From positions 1 to 64,000 of the forward strand of contig JAMLHW010000014.1 of assembly GCA_023954475.1 (NCBI GenBank): DNA of 64,000 bases. The letters are read 5' to 3'. A program made the translations under genes and the position numbers. Each line of letters starts with the position of its first letter. Positions within the stretch are counted from its first letter, which is position 1. This DNA comes from Anaerolineae bacterium. Its GTDB lineage: Bacteria > Chloroflexota > Anaerolineae > Promineifilales > Promineifilaceae. Of the stretch, positions 31,907 through 42,894 are shown piece by piece. The notes beneath the pieces are model-generated. The model saw only the letters and a program-made list of their open reading frames with translations, was not told the origin of the DNA and searched no databases.

Positions 31907-32698
31907 TCAGCGGCTCAACAAAGTTCCAAACGCCCCGTGCGGTTCGCGCAGGGCGTTTTGTATTGCACCGGGTTGCAAACCGGAAAAAATGCGAATGGAG
32001 AGACCCGGTTGTGCATCAACCAGATCGAGCATCGTCAGCACTTTGGTCAACATGCCGCCGGTGACATCTGTCCCACGCGATCCACCGAGTGCGGCGCGGA
32101 TGTGCGGCAGATTGGCGCGTGTAATGGTTGGTATCACGCTGCTCTCAGCATCGTAGACACCGTCGGTTTCGCCGGCCAGCAGCAACCAGGACGGCTGTAG
32201 CGTGGTGGCAAGTGCGGTCATCACTTCTTCCGTGGAGATGATGGTGCCGCCGCGCACGCTGTCAAAAGCAACATCACCATAAATGATGGGCAGCAGCCCG
32301 GCAGCAAGCGCTTTTTGTATTGGCTGCAAGGCTATGTGACGAATCGTACCGTCTTCACATTCGGCCGATGCGGACGGCGACAAGCTCATTGCCGGAATAC
32401 CGGCGTCGAGCAGATAGCGCCGTACAATGGCATTGAGCCGTGTAGCCGCATCGCTGACCTCAGCAAAACCTGCCCACTGTTCGGCCGAATGGACACCTTG
32501 GCGCGTTCCATACGACGCTGCAGCGACGTGACCAAATGAACCACTGCCGTGTCCCAGCACGACTTTCAGATCAGGATTTTCGGTGAGTGCCGCCTTGATT
32601 TCACGAGCAACACGTGCAAGTACAGTCGGCCGAATCGTTTCCGGCTGCGTCTTATCTGTAATCAATGAACCACCGAGCTTGAGAAAAACAAGGGTCAT
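31907..32698 (-). CDS. Isopentenyl phosphate kinase
   Basis: 263 aa, amino-acid-kinase fold. LKLGGSLITDK (residues 6-16) and GHGSGSFGH, with His57 as the conserved isopentenyl phosphate kinase histidine, separate this from aspartate and fosfomycin kinases. GTDVTGGML near 213-221 is the late Gly-rich loop. It phosphorylates isopentenyl phosphate to isopentenyl diphosphate, the last step of the alternative mevalonate route described for archaea and for Roseiflexus (Chloroflexota). Its ATG overlaps the LOG-family stop by four bases (ATGA). The rest of the mevalonate route is not in the window. Confidence 0.86.
   Translation of the reverse strand: MTLVFLKLGGSLITDKTQPETIRPTVLARVAREIKAALTENPDLKVVLGHGSGSFGHVAAASYGTRQGVHSAEQWAGFAEVSDAATRLNAIVRRYLLDAGIPAMSLSPSASAECEDGTIRHIALQPIQKALAAGLLPIIYGDVAFDSVRGGTIISTEEVMTALATTLQPSWLLLAGETDGVYDAESSVIPTITRANLPHIRAALGGSRGTDVTGGMLTKVLTMLDLVDAQPGLSIRIFSGLQPGAIQNALREPHGAFGTLLSR
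31928..31962 (+). terminator. Hairpin ending the lipoprotein transcript, inside the IPK 3' end
   Basis: AAACGCCC (31928-31935) pairs with GGGCGTTT (31951-31958), with an inner TGCG/CGCA stem, followed by TTGT. It lies 58 bases after the rightward lipoprotein stop but within the last codons of the convergent isopentenyl phosphate kinase gene. It is probably a terminator for the rightward transcript. The T-run is short. Confidence 0.5.
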
Positions 32699-33246
32699 CC
32701 TGTTGCTCCGTTGTGATAGGCAACGACATGGTTTACGGCTTCATCCGCCGTCATTGCAAATGTCAGCATCGCTACAAAGCGTGCATCGACATACGTTTCA
32801 TGCACAAACGCATCAACTGTGTCACGCCACATCCTGCCCAGCAAAACCAGCGGACGCTGCGGTATCTCGCCGACCTGCATCATGTTCCATGTGAGTGACA
32901 GTTCGCCCAGTGTGCCGATCCCACCGGGTAGTACGACCGCGCCGTCATTGTGCAACACGAGATGCATGAGCCGGTCACGCAAAGAATCGTAGCGAATCTC
33001 TTCGGCGACCCATCGATTGGCTTGTATCGGCCGAAAGCGCTCGATCTGCGCCGATGTGACACCAATCACATGACCACCGGCCTCCGACGCGCCCCGACTA
33101 ACCGCTTCCATCGTGCCAACATAGCCGCCAGTCGCCACTGCGTAACCAGCTTCAGCCAATCCGCGACCGACTGCCAGCGCCTGTTTATATGCCATCGTGC
33201 CGGGCTGCGGCGCGGCACTGCCAAATACGCTGATAACCTTCATCAT
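32695..33246 (-). CDS. LOG-family protein (TIGR00730-like)
   Basis: 183 aa. VFGSAAPQPGTMAY at the N-terminus and LPGGIGTLGEL (106-116) give the PGGxGTxxE motif of LOG/lysine-decarboxylase-like proteins. Members hydrolyse nucleoside 5'-monophosphates of modified adenines (cytokinin phosphoribohydrolase); others have unclear roles. The middle gene of a P1 peptidase-LOG-IPK operon, it begins seven bases before the P1 stop codon is reached on the plus coordinates, with GGGAGAATAGGGTG as a ribosome-binding region. Two adjacent ATGs (33246, 33243) are possible starts. Coupling to isopentenyl phosphate kinase is intriguing because prenylated adenine is the LOG substrate. Confidence 0.85.
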   Translation of the reverse strand: MMKVISVFGSAAPQPGTMAYKQALAVGRGLAEAGYAVATGGYVGTMEAVSRGASEAGGHVIGVTSAQIERFRPIQANRWVAEEIRYDSLRDRLMHLVLHNDGAVVLPGGIGTLGELSLTWNMMQVGEIPQRPLVLLGRMWRDTVDAFVHETYVDARFVAMLTFAMTADEAVNHVVAYHNGATG

Positions 33247-33252
33247 GTCACC

Positions 33253-34194
33253 CTATTCTCCCAACCCATAGATATCTCCGACCGTCCGCGCATGACGCAC
33301 GGCGTCGCGAATGGCCTGCGCGGTCAACTCAACACCCATGTTGGCCACCGCTTCCAGATGCGCTTCTATGTTGCCGGTAGAAACACCATAAACTGTGTCG
33401 CCGTCATGAGTTGAATGCACCGGACGAATCGCCTGCGCCAAACCGTCATGCGCCCGTTGTGCCAGCAAAAAACATTCGATTTTGGACAAGCGCACATTGG
33501 TTGCCACCAAAACCAAGGTCGTATTTATCATCTCCATACCTGGAATGTCGTAATGGCGAAAATGGCGATACAGATTATCAGCCACAGCCCATTGTCCATC
33601 GCTGCGTCGCGCTCCTGCCAAAACAGTGCCGTCTGTATCCAAAACATCGCCCATTGCATTGACGGCAGCGGCGGCAAATACGGCAACTTCGCCGACGCGA
33701 TCCCCGGCAACGCCAAAACCACCTTTCATTGGGCCGGGAAATCCGTTCCATTTGCCGACAATCGCGCCGGTGCCTGCACCGACATTGCCCTGCGCCGCGT
33801 TGTTGAGAATAGCGTTTTCGCACGCTGCGTAGGCCATTTCGGCCGATGGAATCACGGCACCTTTATTGAAAAACAGGTCAAAGAGGATGGATGTTGGGAC
33901 GAGGGGAATCGGCCGAATCGGAGTCTGATAACCCATCCCGCGTTCAACATGCCACTGCACAACACCTTCCGCAGCTCCCAACCCCAAGGCACTGCCGCCG
34001 GCAAACAAGATCGCATTGGGATGCTTGTCCGGTCGGGTCGGTTGCATCAACGCTGCCTCACGCGAACCCGGCCCACCCCCACGTACTTCAACACTGGCAA
34101 CCGTATCAGGTGGACATAAGAAAACCGTACAACCCGTATAATTGGCTTTGTCTGTGGCATGGCCAATCTTGAGACCTAGTGAATCTAGAGGCAT
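33253..34194 (-). CDS. P1-family (DmpA/NylC-like) self-processing peptidase
   Basis: 313 aa. LKIGHATDKANYTGCTVFLCP and RGGGPGSREAALMQP are N-terminal family signatures, and GGSALGLGAAEGV and GNVGAGTGAIVGK follow. Asn224-Thr225-Thr226 (INTTLVLVATN) matches the autocleavage site of NylC/DmpA, so the precursor should split into two chains with Thr225 as the N-terminal nucleophile. It cleaves N-terminal amino acids, beta-peptides or amide oligomers. It is the first gene of a three-gene leftward operon with the LOG-family protein and isopentenyl phosphate kinase; the functional link is unclear. Confidence 0.9.
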   Translation of the reverse strand: MPLDSLGLKIGHATDKANYTGCTVFLCPPDTVASVEVRGGGPGSREAALMQPTRPDKHPNAILFAGGSALGLGAAEGVVQWHVERGMGYQTPIRPIPLVPTSILFDLFFNKGAVIPSAEMAYAACENAILNNAAQGNVGAGTGAIVGKWNGFPGPMKGGFGVAGDRVGEVAVFAAAAVNAMGDVLDTDGTVLAGARRSDGQWAVADNLYRHFRHYDIPGMEMINTTLVLVATNVRLSKIECFLLAQRAHDGLAQAIRPVHSTHDGDTVYGVSTGNIEAHLEAVANMGVELTAQAIRDAVRHARTVGDIYGLGE

Positions 34195-35201: not shown

Positions 35202-37796
35202 ATGAAGAAAGTGTTGTTTCTTGTTTTAGCTGTAATGCTGGCAGCCCTTGCGGCGTGTTCGGCCGAACCTGAAGTCGTCGAGGTAACCAGAGTCGTTACC
35301 GAAGAGCAGGTCGTCGAAGTCGAAGTCACAACCGTTGTCCAAGAAGAAGTACAAGTTGAAGTTACACGCGAAGTGGAAGTTATGGTTGAAGCCACAATTG
35401 CACCCGTTGATCGCAATGGCGGCTGGCTTGATACCATCGTCTTCACGCAGGAGCCCAATCAGGATTCTGCCATTGCCCGTCTCGCGGCTGGCGACATCGA
35501 CATGTTTGCTGACGACGTAGCCGGCGCGGCTATTTTGTCCGCCATTGCCGATGCCGGCAATATCCAGACGCGCACGCAATATGGTCTCTATGACGAAATC
35601 TTCTTCAACAACGGAGCTTGTGCCGATGAGGCCGTACTCAATCCATTCCACAACCAGAAGATTCGCGAAGCAATGAACTGGGCCATCGACCGTGATTACG
35701 TCGCTGACGAACTATATGCCGGTCTGGCAGTGCCAAAATTCACAACCATTTCAGAAGCTGGTGCTGACCGCGGACGCTTTGCAGCAGAAATCCGCGCCAT
35801 TGAAGCCAAATATGCTTATGATTTGGAAAAAGCACGCGAAATTATCACTGCTGAAATGGAAGGCTTGGGAGCTACCCTGGAAGACGGCAAATGGGTGTAC
35901 AACGGTGAACCGGTCACACTGATCGGCCTCATCCGTATTGAAGATACCCGTCTCCAAATCGGCAACTATGTTGCCAATCAGCTCGAAGATCTCGGCTTCA
36001 CCATTGAGCGCGTCGAGCGTACCTCTGGCGAACTGAGCCCCTTGTGGATCAGCTCTGATCCGGCCGAATGTCAATGGAACTGGTACACCGGTGCCTGGAG
36101 TCAAACCGCAGTTGATCGCAGCAATGCTGACAACTTCGACTTCTTCTACAATCCGCGTGGCGTACCGTGGCCATCCTGGCAAGTCTATGAGCCAACACCG
36201 GAATTTGACGCGCTGTCCCTGCGCCTGTTCAACAACGACTATGCCGATCTAGACGAACGCGCCGAAATGATGGCACAAGCATTGGAAATGGCTTCCGAAA
36301 TGGCGACCCGTGTCTGGGTGACAAGCCGCACAACATTGGTTCCGTTTAGCAACGACGTTAGCGTAACGACTGACCTGGCAGGTGGTGTTAGTGGTGCTGC
36401 TCTCTGGTCTAAAACCGCTCGCTTCGCCGATGAAGTTGGTGGCTCTATGACTATCGCTCTGCCCAGTGTCTTTACCGAACCGTGGAACCCCATTGGTGGC
36501 TCCAACTGGGTGTTTGACAATATGGTGAAGCGTGGTGCCGGCGAACCTGCGTTCTACAGCGATCCGAATACCGGTTTGCGGATTCCTAATCGCGCAGAGC
36601 GTGCAGAAGTCGTCGTTGAAGAAGGTTTCCCGATGAGCAAGACGCTTGATTGGGTCGACCTGTCGTTTGCACCGGAAATCGCCGTTCCTGACGATGCCTG
36701 GGCCGGTTGGGATGCAGTAAATCAAGTCTTCCTGACTGCGGCTGATGTCTATACTGAGCCGCAAACTGCTGTCTTCAAGAGCACGGTTTACTATCCGGAA
36801 GATATGTTTGAAACTGTCAAGTGGCACGATGGCAGCCCCATTAGCGTCGCAGACTTTGTCATGGGCATGATCATCAACTTCGATCTCGGTAACCCCGATA
36901 GCCCGTATTACGATGAATCAAAAGCACCAGACCTGGATCAGTTCCTGTCTGCGTTCAAAGGTATCCGTATTGTTTCCACGGATCCGCTTGTCATCGAACA
37001 CTACGGAGATAACCCGAGTCTGGATGCTGAGAACTCCATTTACTCATGGTGGCCCGGTACTGGTGGCGGTGAGGCCTACGACTTCGCTGACGTTGCCTGG
37101 CACAATATGGCCATTATGTTGCGTGGTGAAGAGAATGGTGGATTTGCCTTCACACCAGACAAAGCTGAAGCCAATGAGATCGAACGCACCAACATGATTG
37201 CTGGTCCATCGCTCGAAGTATGGGCAACTGAACTTGCTGCTGCGATCGAAGAAGGCTGGATTCCGTACGCTGCAACATTGGGTGAGTACATTGATGACCC
37301 AATGACAAGCTACAACAACCTGTCAGAATTTGCCCGTCGTTATGGACATTACTATCTCGGTACGGGTGCTTACTTCTTGTCAGGTGTCTTCCCGGTTGAA
37401 GGTCAGGCTATTATGACCCACAATCCTAACCATCCGGATGCTGCAAATCGCTGGGATCGTTTCTCTGCTCCTGCAATTGCCGAAGTGGAAGTTGACGGAC
37501 CGGGTCGTGTGACCATCGGAGATGAGGCTGTGTTTGACGTATATGTCGATGCTCTTGGAGAGACATATGCAGTCGATGACATTAACAATGTCCAGTACTT
37601 GCTGTTTGACGCGACTGGCCAACAGATCGAACAAGGTCTGGCAGAAGCAGTTGAAGATGGCTTGTGGTCTGTCACCCTGAGTGCTGATACGACCAGCATG
37701 CTCGCCGAAGGTTCTAACCGGCTAGAAGTCGTGGTCGTATCTAACCTGGTAGCGATTCCGAGCTTGGGCTCATTTGAGTTCGTTACGGCTCCGTAA
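35202..37796 (+). CDS. Peptide/nickel-type (family 5) ABC binding lipoprotein, circularly permuted
   Basis: 864 aa. Lipobox (ALAAC, Cys19), then a Val/Glu/Thr/Arg tether (22-65). Segments that normally end family 5 binding proteins come first: LDTIVF (76-81), GDID (97-100), KIREAMNWAIDRDYV (153-167), YDLEKAREI (206-214). The usual N-terminal part follows: MTIALP (416-421), VKWHDGSPISVADFV (539-553), GTGAYFL (720-726) and HNPN (740-743). The order is thus rotated, with the break between the HNPN-x-W and LDxIVF blocks. A C-terminal Ig-like domain (about 756-864) is added. It should capture a peptide or similar solute for the permeases encoded downstream. GGAGA precedes the ATG. Confidence 0.85.
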   Translation: MKKVLFLVLAVMLAALAACSAEPEVVEVTRVVTEEQVVEVEVTTVVQEEVQVEVTREVEVMVEATIAPVDRNGGWLDTIVFTQEPNQDSAIARLAAGDIDMFADDVAGAAILSAIADAGNIQTRTQYGLYDEIFFNNGACADEAVLNPFHNQKIREAMNWAIDRDYVADELYAGLAVPKFTTISEAGADRGRFAAEIRAIEAKYAYDLEKAREIITAEMEGLGATLEDGKWVYNGEPVTLIGLIRIEDTRLQIGNYVANQLEDLGFTIERVERTSGELSPLWISSDPAECQWNWYTGAWSQTAVDRSNADNFDFFYNPRGVPWPSWQVYEPTPEFDALSLRLFNNDYADLDERAEMMAQALEMASEMATRVWVTSRTTLVPFSNDVSVTTDLAGGVSGAALWSKTARFADEVGGSMTIALPSVFTEPWNPIGGSNWVFDNMVKRGAGEPAFYSDPNTGLRIPNRAERAEVVVEEGFPMSKTLDWVDLSFAPEIAVPDDAWAGWDAVNQVFLTAADVYTEPQTAVFKSTVYYPEDMFETVKWHDGSPISVADFVMGMIINFDLGNPDSPYYDESKAPDLDQFLSAFKGIRIVSTDPLVIEHYGDNPSLDAENSIYSWWPGTGGGEAYDFADVAWHNMAIMLRGEENGGFAFTPDKAEANEIERTNMIAGPSLEVWATELAAAIEEGWIPYAATLGEYIDDPMTSYNNLSEFARRYGHYYLGTGAYFLSGVFPVEGQAIMTHNPNHPDAANRWDRFSAPAIAEVEVDGPGRVTIGDEAVFDVYVDALGETYAVDDINNVQYLLFDATGQQIEQGLAEAVEDGLWSVTLSADTTSMLAEGSNRLEVVVVSNLVAIPSLGSFEFVTAP

Positions 37797-38350: not shown

Positions 38351-39526
38351 GTGAGCCAGGAAATCCTACAGCCTGAGTTTTCAGATGAGGTGTTCAGTCA
38401 AGATGTAGATCTTGACGAAATGCGAGCAACAGAACGCAAAGCCAAAAGACAGGCAACGGTGCGTATGATCCGCTATACGTTGCTCAAGTTGCTTGCTCTG
38501 ATATTCACAGTTGCGGTAGGCGTCTACTTCACTGTGCTCATTGCTAACATGGGAGGCTACGTCGATGAAATTCGTCGTGGCCAAATTCGCGAGACGATTG
38601 TTCTCGCAGCCAGTCTTGACCCAGAATTTCGCCAACTACCGGAATCTGAACGCACGGCCATTATTGAGCAACGCGTTGCCAATGAAGAAGCACGCTACGG
38701 TCTGGATCGGCCATTCATCCTACGTAGTTTCAGCTATCTCGCCGATGCCATGACTCTTAATCTCGGCTTCTCACAGCAGTTGAGCAGTGACAGTGGGTCG
38801 CGGCTGGTCAGGAATATCATTCTCGAACGCCTTCCGTCAACATTAGTTTTATTCGGCACGTCTAATCTCCTCTTGTTTTTCATCAGTCTGTTTTTTGGCC
38901 TCACTTTATCTCGACGATACGGGAGTATTTCAGATAAGCTGGTTTTGGGGCTGGCACCGACATCTGCGGCACCAGCTTGGTTCTACGGCCTGTTTCTCAT
39001 TCTGATTTTTGCCGGTTTGTTTAGTCTTCTACCATTCGGCGGCATGGTCAGCGCGCCGCCGCCCGACAATCCTCTGGATTATTCCCTCAGTGTCCTGCAA
39101 CATATGATACTTCCAGTTGGTGCCTGGCTAATCAGTGGCATCTTTCTGACTATCTATCAATGGCGCACATTCTTCCTAATCTACGCCAGTGAAGACTACG
39201 TTGACATGGCAAAAGCGAAGGGCTTGACCGATCGCATGATTGAGCGGCGCTATGTTCTGCGACCTACATTGCCCAACATTATCACCCAATTTGCTTTGCT
39301 CTTGATAACTCTATGGACTGGGGCCATTATTCTGGAAACAGTGTTCAACTGGCCCGGAATTGGACAACTTTATTTCAGAGCTATTGGTGTTTTTGACATC
39401 CCGGTTATTCTGGCTAATACGGTAGTCTACGCTTACTTGTTGGCCTTAACCGTGTTCCTACTTGATTTCATCTATGCGTTGGTTGATCCACGCGTTCGTA
39501 TCGGTGGCGGAGGAGAAAAATCATGA
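38351..39526 (+). CDS. Peptide-type ABC permease, DppB/OppB family
   Basis: 391 aa. A cytoplasmic N-terminal extension (about 1-35) precedes the first helix (about 43-65). A periplasmic stretch holds RPFILRSFSYLADAMTLNLGFS, the usual DppB pattern, then about five helices. DMAKAKGLTDRMIERRYVLRPTLPN is the EAA-type loop that contacts the ATPases. The start is GTG, with AAGGAAAAGGTG upstream. The final residues overlap the next permease (ATGA). It pairs with the DppC-like protein to form the channel. Confidence 0.9.
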   Translation: MSQEILQPEFSDEVFSQDVDLDEMRATERKAKRQATVRMIRYTLLKLLALIFTVAVGVYFTVLIANMGGYVDEIRRGQIRETIVLAASLDPEFRQLPESERTAIIEQRVANEEARYGLDRPFILRSFSYLADAMTLNLGFSQQLSSDSGSRLVRNIILERLPSTLVLFGTSNLLLFFISLFFGLTLSRRYGSISDKLVLGLAPTSAAPAWFYGLFLILIFAGLFSLLPFGGMVSAPPPDNPLDYSLSVLQHMILPVGAWLISGIFLTIYQWRTFFLIYASEDYVDMAKAKGLTDRMIERRYVLRPTLPNIITQFALLLITLWTGAIILETVFNWPGIGQLYFRAIGVFDIPVILANTVVYAYLLALTVFLLDFIYALVDPRVRIGGGGEKS

Positions 39527-40884
39527 TTCGTCTGAGACGTTTTTTAACCGAACTGCGACGTTATCCTTCAGCGCTCGCAGGTATCATCATTATTCTCTTG
39601 TTGCTCATCACTTCAATTGTCGTTCCGATAATGACACCTTATAGCGAGGCCCTCCGCCTGTGGCGTGGCGGTGAAGATATCTGGGCACAATATCCCCGCA
39701 ATGCATGGCCAGTCTGGTACAACCTGTTTGTTGAAGGGACTTTACCCGAAACAATCGTTTTCGATAGCTCTAAAGAGGATGGGGTAATAACAGAACAGCA
39801 GCTATCAGAGGGTACACGTGAAATCCTCTTTTCATACGAGTTTGATTATCAATACGATGATTTCCCGCCTGAAATGAATGTGTTCACCAAGGCAAAATAT
39901 ACGGAAAAACAACCTTTTGTGGAAATGACCTGGTATACACCGGATGGACGCGACATTCGCCTGGGCGAATTCTCATCCGGACCAACCACATCTTTCCGCT
40001 TTGCCCAGGAAGAACGCTTGCAACGTCGATTAGAACGCGAAACCGGTATTGACAATGTGGCGGCGAACAAAGCGCTATTTGACGATCCCAGTCAAGAGGG
40101 GCTGCAACCGCTCAAGGGCACATACAGAATCGAGCTGGCTGGCCTTCTGTTCGAAGAAGATTCGGAACTGGAGACTACATTTGTGTCCTATGGATTGGTT
40201 CACGGCATCGCAGGCACAGACCATCGCAGGCGCGACCTGTCTGTAGCATTGCTATGGGGAACACCGATCGCCATGGCATTTGGCTTACTGGCTGCCATCG
40301 GTACAACTGTGACAACCATGGGTATTGCTGCAGTCGGTGTCTGGTATGGCGGCTGGCTTGATGGGCTTATTCAGCGCATCACAGAGATAAATGCTATCAT
40401 TCCGCTTTTACCCATTCTTATTATGGTGGGCACGTTTTATTCTCGAAGTATCTGGCTGATGCTGGGTTTAGTCATCCTGCTCAGCATCTTTGGTCTGTCC
40501 ATCAAGAATTATCGCGCCATCTTCCTTCAGGTGCGTGAACTTCCTTACATCGATGCCGCCAAAGCATATGGTGCCGGCAATCTGCGTATCATCTTCCGTT
40601 ACTTAATTCCGCGGGTGCTGCCATTGATCATCCCATCGCTGATTTTGCTTATCCCGAGTTTCGTCTTCCTTGAAGCATCTCTAGCAGTACTTGGATTAGG
40701 TGATCCTGTTTTGCCTACCTGGGGCAAATTGATCAACGATGCCAATTCAGAAGGTGCCCTATTCAACGGATTTTATTACTGGATTCTGGAACCTGCGGGG
40801 TTGTTGATGTTAGCAGGCTTTGGTTTTGCACTGGTTGGATTTGCTCTGGATCGTATTTTTAATCCGAGATTGAGGGAGCTGTAG
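39523..40884 (+). CDS. Peptide-type ABC permease, DppC/OppC family
   Basis: 453 aa, about 150 longer than most DppC proteins. The first helix (about 17-38) is followed by a long extracytoplasmic insertion (about 45-225) rich in acidic and aromatic residues, then HGIAGTDHRRRDLSVALLWGTPIAMAFG, the usual start of the permease core. EAA-type loop: YIDAAKAYGAGNLRIIFRYLIPRVLPL. The insertion may contact the enlarged, rearranged binding protein. The ATG overlaps the DppB-like stop. Confidence 0.9.
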   Translation: MIRLRRFLTELRRYPSALAGIIIILLLLITSIVVPIMTPYSEALRLWRGGEDIWAQYPRNAWPVWYNLFVEGTLPETIVFDSSKEDGVITEQQLSEGTREILFSYEFDYQYDDFPPEMNVFTKAKYTEKQPFVEMTWYTPDGRDIRLGEFSSGPTTSFRFAQEERLQRRLERETGIDNVAANKALFDDPSQEGLQPLKGTYRIELAGLLFEEDSELETTFVSYGLVHGIAGTDHRRRDLSVALLWGTPIAMAFGLLAAIGTTVTTMGIAAVGVWYGGWLDGLIQRITEINAIIPLLPILIMVGTFYSRSIWLMLGLVILLSIFGLSIKNYRAIFLQVRELPYIDAAKAYGAGNLRIIFRYLIPRVLPLIIPSLILLIPSFVFLEASLAVLGLGDPVLPTWGKLINDANSEGALFNGFYYWILEPAGLLMLAGFGFALVGFALDRIFNPRLREL

Positions 40885-40888
40885 CGCG

Positions 40889-41854
40889 ATGGAAAACAAA
40901 AACGATGACAAGCTGCTTGAGATCAAAAACCTGCGCCTCCATTTTTCAACACGTGGTGGTACGGTGCAGGCTGTCGACAGTGTCAATTTCGAATTAAAAC
41001 GCAATCATGCGACGGTCGTTATCGGTGAATCCGGATGCGGCAAGAGCAGCCTTGCCAAGGCTGTGCTGCGCTTATTACCGCGCAACATCAAGACCTATGA
41101 CGGACAAGTGATACTTGCCGGTGAAGATATTATGGCACTCGATGATGAGACCTTTCGCAGGACGATTCGCTGGAAACGTATTTCGATGGTGCCACAGGCA
41201 GCGATGAATGCACTCAATCCGGTTATGCGCATTGGTGAGCAGGTCGCAGAGCCAGCAATGGTTCATTTGTCGCTCACTAAAAAAGAAGCCCTACAGCAAG
41301 CGGTGCGCATGTTTGAACAAGTCGGCGTACCTACGGATTTTGTTTATCGGTACGCATTTGAACTGAGTGGCGGTATGCGACAACGTGCAGCACTGGCAAT
41401 GTCACTGGTGACACTGCCTGATCTCGTCATTCTGGATGAGCCGACTTCGGCACTAGATGTTTTGACGCAAGCCAGTATTATGAATTTAATGAAGCGCGTC
41501 AAGAATCAGCTTGAGACGAGCTTTATTCTGATTACGCATGATATTGCAACGTCAAGCGAATTAGCTGATAGTGTGGCTGTCATGTATGCGGGTCAAATCG
41601 TAGAGGTCAGCGATGCATTCCAGTTTTTCTCCGCACCATTGCATCCATATTCGCGCAAACTGATGGCGAGCGTGCCGCGATTGCGGATGGATGTGGAGCC
41701 TGAGTTTATCACGGGACAACCTCCAAGTTTGATCAACCCGCCTACCGGCTGTCGTTTTGCCGCCCGCTGTCCGGCCCGTTTCAGTAAATGTGATGAAGAA
41801 CCACCGATGCTGCAGATTGGTGATCGTCAAGTTAAGTGTTGGCTACACGCGTAA
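40889..41854 (+). CDS. Peptide-type ABC ATPase, DppD/OppD family
   Basis: 321 aa. Walker A GESGCGKSS, signature LSGGMRQRAA, Walker B LVILDEPTSALD and switch His in LITHD. The C-terminal oligopeptide-transporter motif PPSLINPPTGCRFAARCP carries two of the cysteines that bind an iron-sulfur cluster in DppD-type ATPases; CDEEPPMLQ...KCWLHA adds the remaining two. It pairs with the DppF-like ATPase. Confidence 0.93.
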   Translation: MENKNDDKLLEIKNLRLHFSTRGGTVQAVDSVNFELKRNHATVVIGESGCGKSSLAKAVLRLLPRNIKTYDGQVILAGEDIMALDDETFRRTIRWKRISMVPQAAMNALNPVMRIGEQVAEPAMVHLSLTKKEALQQAVRMFEQVGVPTDFVYRYAFELSGGMRQRAALAMSLVTLPDLVILDEPTSALDVLTQASIMNLMKRVKNQLETSFILITHDIATSSELADSVAVMYAGQIVEVSDAFQFFSAPLHPYSRKLMASVPRLRMDVEPEFITGQPPSLINPPTGCRFAARCPARFSKCDEEPPMLQIGDRQVKCWLHA

Positions 41855-41868
41855 TTGGGGAGAGCAAA

Positions 41869-42894
41869 ATGAGTGAAATGCAAGAAAAATCCAAAGAAGT
41901 TCTGCTCTCTATTCAAGATTTACATGTCTGGTATGAATTGAAGCGTTTCGGCTTTGGACATGCAGGATTTGTGCGGGCAGTTGATGGCGTGTCGTTTGAT
42001 CTAATGCAAGGTGAAGCGATGGCTTGCGTCGGCGAAAGTGGCTGTGGCAAGTCAAGCTTAATGAAAACGATTATGGGGTTAAATCGGCCGACTAAAGGCG
42101 ATATCGTTTTTGACGGCACGAAACTAACCGAAACACAGGGCGAAGCCTTGCGTCTGTATCGGTCGAAGATCGGTTATGTGCAGCAAGATCCATTCGGCGC
42201 ACTGCCGCCGTTTATGTCAATTCAACGTATTTTAGAAGAGCCGCTGATCGTCAACGGCATCAAGGACAAAGCCGAACGACTGGATCGCATCAGACGCACC
42301 CTGACAGAGGTCAAACTCACGCCGGTTGAAGAGGTGCTACCCAAATACCCACACATGTTGAGCGGTGGTCAGCAGCAGCGCGTTGTAATTGCGCGGGCTA
42401 TGATTTTGGAACCTCAGTTACTCGTAGCCGATGAGCCCGTTTCGATGTTGGATGCTTCGGTCCGCGTTGAGATTCTCAAATTGCTGCGCGGTTTGCAAGA
42501 AACACACAATCTGGCCGTAATTTATATCACGCATGATTTGTCTACTGTGCGCTACTTCTCCGAATATATCTTCGTCATGTATGCTGGAGAAGTCGTAGAG
42601 ATTGCGGAAATGGAAACGCTGCTGAACAACCCACAGCATCCCTATACGCAAGCACTGCTGACAGCATCTTCTGATCCTGACGCTAATAACGCGTTGGTGA
42701 TGCGTGACATCCCACCCGGCGAGCCGCCCAGCCTGGTCAATCCGCCAGAAGGATGCCGGTTTAACCCGCGATGCCCAGAGATGATTCCCGGTAAATGTGA
42801 TGTAAAGCGCCCGCCTTCATTTGAGACAGAAAAGCATCACAAAGTGCTTTGCTGGCTATACGAAGGAGAAAAAATCGTCGATGCGACCGGGTAG
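41869..42894 (+). CDS. Peptide-type ABC ATPase, DppF/OppF family
   Basis: 341 aa from ATG 41869, preceded by GGGGAG; an in-frame TTG at 41836 would overlap the DppD-like gene. Walker A GESGCGKSS, signature LSGGQQQRVV, Walker B LVADEPVSMLD, switch His in ITHDLS. The C-terminus has the peptide-transporter motif PPSLVNPPEGCRFNPRCP and further cysteines (KCDVKRPP, KVLCWLY). Contains one of only four TCGGCCGA copies in this gene block (42084-42091). Confidence 0.93.
   Translation: MSEMQEKSKEVLLSIQDLHVWYELKRFGFGHAGFVRAVDGVSFDLMQGEAMACVGESGCGKSSLMKTIMGLNRPTKGDIVFDGTKLTETQGEALRLYRSKIGYVQQDPFGALPPFMSIQRILEEPLIVNGIKDKAERLDRIRRTLTEVKLTPVEEVLPKYPHMLSGGQQQRVVIARAMILEPQLLVADEPVSMLDASVRVEILKLLRGLQETHNLAVIYITHDLSTVRYFSEYIFVMYAGEVVEIAEMETLLNNPQHPYTQALLTASSDPDANNALVMRDIPPGEPPSLVNPPEGCRFNPRCPEMIPGKCDVKRPPSFETEKHHKVLCWLYEGEKIVDATG

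Follow-up and report, generated by a model that had tools for sequence, protein, structure and literature searches.

The window, that is, the whole stretch of 64,000 nucleotides that was analysed, contains on its plus strand an open reading frame (ORF) of 864 aa at 35202-37796 with no stops inside. Judging by sequence, the encoded protein starts with a signal peptide (residues 1-20, 35202..35261) bearing the lipobox LAAC with Cys 19, followed by a VEVT-rich stalk (residues 21-70, 35262..35411). Three segments come next on the same strand: segment A (residues 71-411, 35412..36434), which by profiles and fold match corresponds to the canonical C-terminal half of SBP_bac_5; segment B (residues 412-745, 36435..37436), which on the same grounds corresponds to the canonical N-terminal half; and segment C (residues 746-864, 37437..37793), an additional beta-rich domain that follows the permuted core. 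A lipobox-like motif was present in 76 of 80 relatives, and for three of the four exceptions the fetched frame did not reach the start of the gene. Many other ORFs of this genome and its relatives, including linear solute-binding proteins (SBPs), had a lipoprotein leader and stalk resembling this one, and their matches were confined to approximately residues 1-70. A scan for promoters and terminators gave results at chance level only.

Genes for an ABC importer were found further along the plus strand, namely oppB (38351..39526) and oppC (39523..40884), encoding permease subunits, and oppD (40889..41854) and oppF (41836..42894), encoding ABC ATPases with oligo_HPY. Two adjacent permease genes and two oligo_HPY ATPase genes are thus present, as in an Opp/Dpp importer, and oppB/C/D/F occurred near the permuted SBP gene in 65-67 of the 69 loci tested. 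OppB has a long loop after TM1. OppC is long because about 205 residues lie between its TM1 and TM2 (TM segments by hydropathy), and OppC has stayed this long across the family (median ORF of 458 aa) and in its divergent branch. The TM1-TM2 stretch of OppC may serve to dock the permuted protein. On the minus strand, three consecutive genes (31907-34194) encode an amino acid kinase, a LOG/lysine-decarboxylase-like protein and a peptidase S58; genes related to the second and third were also seen near the permuted SBP operon of locus L059. Another contig of the same genome (C20, L163:6104-8692) encodes an 862 aa OppB-OppC fusion, paralogous to the pair in the window (41% and 48%). It is surrounded by SUF-type iron-sulfur assembly genes (by eye from their sequences, sufC-, sufB-, sufD-, sulfurtransferase-, sufS- and sufU-like), and neither a binding protein nor an ATPase belonging to it was seen alongside.

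The 864 aa protein matched the Pfam family SBP_bac_5 (PF00496) with an E-value of 9.8e-23 and 81.3 bits against a gathering threshold of 32.4, a resemblance that, on this score, is far beyond chance. All the strong matches listed for it are cluster C family 5 proteins. However, in its best-matching stretch (residues 76-305) only positions 148-352 of the profile, its second half, are aligned, and the profile does not run from start to end along the chain, as its C-terminal part comes first. Seven other SBP_bac_5 proteins of the same genome have the ordinary order (profile about 1-360). The motifs LDTIVF (76-81), GDIDM (97-101), KIREAMNWAIDR (153-164) and YDLEKAREI (206-214) are followed, in the later part of the protein, by MTIALP (416-421), WHDGSPISVADFV (541-553), GTGAYFL (720-726) and HNPN (740-743). 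Every one of these coordinates, on which the original prediction of a circularly permuted family 5 SBP had been built, was correct on re-checking. Based on score and predicted fold, the protein is a member of family 5 but lacks the chain order of that family.

A phmmer search of solved structures with the single protein matched TkOppA of Thermococcus kodakaraensis (7fi3) in two pieces in reversed order: query 536-731 aligned with chain 102-293, and query 140-306 with chain 396-573. With a profile of 74 relatives, 423-678 aligned with chain 64-309 (E 1e-14) and 12-253 with chain 324-585 (E 7e-31); the two pieces are almost contiguous in TkOppA (chain 309 to 324) and swapped in the window protein. 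For segment B, 7fi3 was the sole strong sequence match. Profile-profile comparison with a linear SBP5 alignment, assembled from this genome and related ones (single length 544), agreed with these matches, and the linear profile was then doubled. Using hhalign, residues 74-570 were placed on columns 252-718 of the doubled profile in one alignment across the junction at 544, with a score of 174.8 versus 153.1 on the single linear profile; the match was poor right at the junction, and the weight was carried by the flanks. The profile searches, the predicted structure and the fold comparisons agree on the permuted order. Based on these sequence and model results, we suggest that the gene very probably encodes the functional substrate-binding lipoprotein of an Opp/Dpp-type peptide ABC importer, a circularly permuted form of the family 5 (cluster C) fold.

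The protein could also be permuted and yet serve a transporter of non-peptide substrates, such as oligosaccharides, metal chelates or opines, as several family 5 proteins do. This family is functionally broad, and binders of chitin oligosaccharides, mannobiose, nickel and EDTA were among the fold hits. We consider a non-peptide substrate unlikely. TkOppA, which was crystallized with a bound pentapeptide according to its entry title, is by far the nearest relative; both ATPases contain oligo_HPY; and a peptidase S58 gene (33253-34194) lies near the operon, though this linkage was seen in one other locus only. The peptide ligand is putative, since it is deduced from TkOppA and from the operon. 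If peptides are transported, oligopeptides would be captured by Venus flytrap closure and then delivered to OppBC. By analogy, such a mechanism is most likely of the same kind as that of E. coli DppABCDF, where the scoop motif of DppB inserts in the cleft between the DppA lobes (PMC12136057).

AlphaFold2, run on the mature protein with 74 sequences, predicted a single confident fold (pLDDT 91.9, pTM 0.87). Foldseek and VIA report one linear alignment per chain and cannot show a permutation on the full model alone; therefore, segment B was modelled separately, and residues 409-754 folded alone with a pLDDT of 92.2 and a pTM of 0.92. In VIA-align, residues 1-345 of the full model matched 7fi3 332-755 (Z 26.2, rmsd 3.1, 341 aligned), segment A of this model matched AppA 205-520 (Z 22.8), and residues 1-343 matched DppA (1dpp) 202-507 (Z 20.8). 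The segment B model matched 7fi3 34-347 (Z 29.3, rmsd 2.4, 293 aligned), DppA (1dpe) 1-210 (Z 8.6, rmsd 3.6, 188 aligned) and the N-terminal halves of many other family 5 proteins, the last with a modest Z of 8.5-10. An alignment to DppA in the normal linear order, set in advance as the outcome that would speak against a permutation, did not occur. The predicted model has the cluster C fold: across many family 5 structures, A corresponds to the C-terminal half and B to the N-terminal half. In these models, the two segments jointly cover the linear cluster C fold in swapped order. Profiles and separate model alignments agree in giving the fold of the linear relatives with a swapped order, which is what characterizes permuted SBPs.

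It might be argued that A and B are half-SBP modules fused by domain shuffling without reconstituting the linear fold. Segment B is only weakly similar in sequence to general family 5 N-terminal halves and has large extra parts, and the relative placement of the two segments was judged from pTM and from separate alignments of each part to linear folds. Nevertheless, both segments match TkOppA, almost without a gap between them (chain 309 to 324) and with a joint fold coverage of 34-755, and a single confident fold is predicted for the whole. Moreover, the GGSMTIAL strand (E349-354), which is the old N-terminus and the first strand of B, was formed in the whole model and absent in isolated segment B, as it should be if segment A supplies the sheet to which this strand belongs. 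We regard such shuffling as very improbable. For the circular permutation, the expectation that the fold could still close in the new order agrees with the one confident body predicted by AlphaFold2, whose halves cover the linear fold.

A search for homologues sharing this order found many of them, and the same A-B order was present in about 100 Chloroflexota loci. Full-length collinear homologues showed 48-77% identity in related genomes and about 45-78% over many independent assemblies. A profile scan of genome contigs yielded 376 relatives. The best 80 of these 376 were examined and were nearly all labelled Chloroflexota, with one contig from a Spirochaetaceae-labelled MAG; among them are the cultured Bellilinea caldifistulae GOMI-1 (L058) and the chromosome-level Caldilineaceae assembly OY282376.1 (L109). 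Most members come from metagenome-assembled genomes, but we reject a misassembly, a chimeric contig or a frameshifted fusion of neighbouring gene pieces as the source of the order, with next to no probability left to it, because collinear full-length homologues occur in independent assemblies, including L058 and L109, the frames are open with no internal stops, and the downstream operon is the same.

In a survey of fetched ORFs with segment HMMs, in which some loci duplicate one another, 108 ORFs had the arrangement ABC, 11 had AB, and one had ABC with an insert in B. None of the ORFs surveyed had B before A, as a linear member would. Neither linear-order nor duplicated intermediates were found in the fetched loci or in 400 genomes of the phylum. 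The 'ABBC' ORF of L141 was considered as a duplicated intermediate and rejected, as it represents an insertion inside B; about 87 aa are inserted within segment B of this permuted member (975 aa ORF, genome G224), and a similar gap in the match was seen in genome G395. A family member was detected at an E-value of 1e-30 or better in 38 of the 400 Chloroflexota genomes. When TkOppA was used as the query on these 400 genomes, the hits at E<=1e-10 were ORFs of the permuted family only. A tblastn search of plasmids gave no match. As judged from these comparisons, a large family of Chloroflexota proteins has retained the permuted order, and the nearest solved relative of this family is the linear archaeal TkOppA.

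In the segment A tree, TkOppA grouped with the permuted family against the other linear proteins with support of 100/99, and its position outside the permuted family was not strongly resolved (69/31). A divergent branch (L034, L134-L138) stood apart from the main branch. The members share their breakpoints; therefore, one permutation event is suggested. A single origin from a TkOppA-like linear gene would be likely, via the usual route of duplication and trimming. On the Spirochaetaceae-labelled MAG contig (L094), the whole operon was present, with OppBCDF 57-66% identical to those of the window, and this label may reflect either transfer or misbinning.

The new termini are located in the loop between the HNPN-W and LDxIVF strands, where the original prediction had placed the break between the HNPN-x-W and LDxIVF blocks. 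In sequence and in the predicted structure, the chain begins at the strand past the HNPN-W loop and continues with the old C-terminal half. The old C-terminus then crosses to the old N-terminus, and the core ends where LDxIVF would normally come next. This old C-to-N junction lies around residues 400-416, where the old C-terminus DLAGGVSGAALW (LAGGVSGAALW...) is followed by about ten residues and then by the old N-terminus GGSMTIALP. The join is alignable among the members listed.

The lipid stalk would now enter at the former HNPN-W/LDxIVF loop, beside the end of segment B. The new chain order, with A before B, is as had been proposed, and the new position of the lipid anchor would be so as well. 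Since the stalk entry adjoins the end of segment B, either terminus could carry the membrane anchor. The proteins of L034, L135 and L136 have no clear lipobox and possess a C-terminal transmembrane-like helix, which suggests that membrane attachment through either end is possible. In L138, a divergent permuted member (838 aa ORF), an N-terminal twin-arginine-like signal SRRHFLSAAAALG was observed in place of the lipobox.

Segment C comprises about 119 aa and is beta-rich in the model. Sequence and profile searches of Pfam families and solved structures gave no credible match for it. Of the earlier description of this part as an extra Ig-like domain, the separate beta-rich domain stands and the secondary structure fits an Ig-like one, but no sequence match in Pfam or PDB supports this assignment. 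Segment C is absent in L139 and L142, and therefore the permuted core can stand without it. The 1082 aa ORF of L142 (genome G443), which has no segment C, is extended at its N-terminus, and the extension contains a metzincin-like zinc motif, HEIGHTLGLDD. This sequence suggests that a protease domain and a peptide-binding protein have been fused.

Taken further, these permuted cluster C proteins would form a peptide-binding family that is ancient and spans the phylum, whose termini at one loop enable membrane anchors (a lipid stalk or a C-terminal helix) and extra domains to be attached, and whose OppC has a large extracytoplasmic insert co-adapted for docking the permuted protein; we offer this broader picture tentatively, as somewhat less probable than its opposite. 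Pfam and NCBIfam match these proteins partially, and therefore their unusual order has been missed in annotation. Few natural circular permutations have been described in the binding proteins of transporters. In the literature searched, with partial coverage and few subscription journals, no account of a family 5 SBP in permuted order came up, so that its novelty is provisional.

Compared with known systems, the window protein shares with E. coli DppA/OppA and other cluster C family 5 SBPs the fold elements, the family motifs and the oppBCDF-type partners. It differs from them in that their order is linear, their N-terminal half is shorter, and they have no added beta-rich domain. OppC of E. 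coli-type DppA/OppA systems is also shorter, about 300 aa. TkOppA resembles it in the sequence and fold of both halves, the long segment B included, and has the family 5 fold; its order is the ordinary one, B then A, while the window protein has A, then B, then domain C. Its linear structure is already solved and can serve for direct comparison. The permutation itself is paralleled by TpMglB-2 (Tp0684) of Treponema, a glucose-binding lipoprotein shown crystallographically to be permuted ('Type Ic / Cluster Bc'), for which membrane tethering was put forward by its authors as a possible reason for the permutation (PMC4990184). Both are natural circular permutations of SBPs that are conserved across a species group and membrane tethered. 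TpMglB-2, however, is a Type I / cluster B sugar binder with a different fold cluster and a different breakpoint, which points to an independent permutation event. As the only precedent found is a sugar binder, this second, independent case, from the large peptide-binding cluster, allows a test of whether tethering accompanies permutation.
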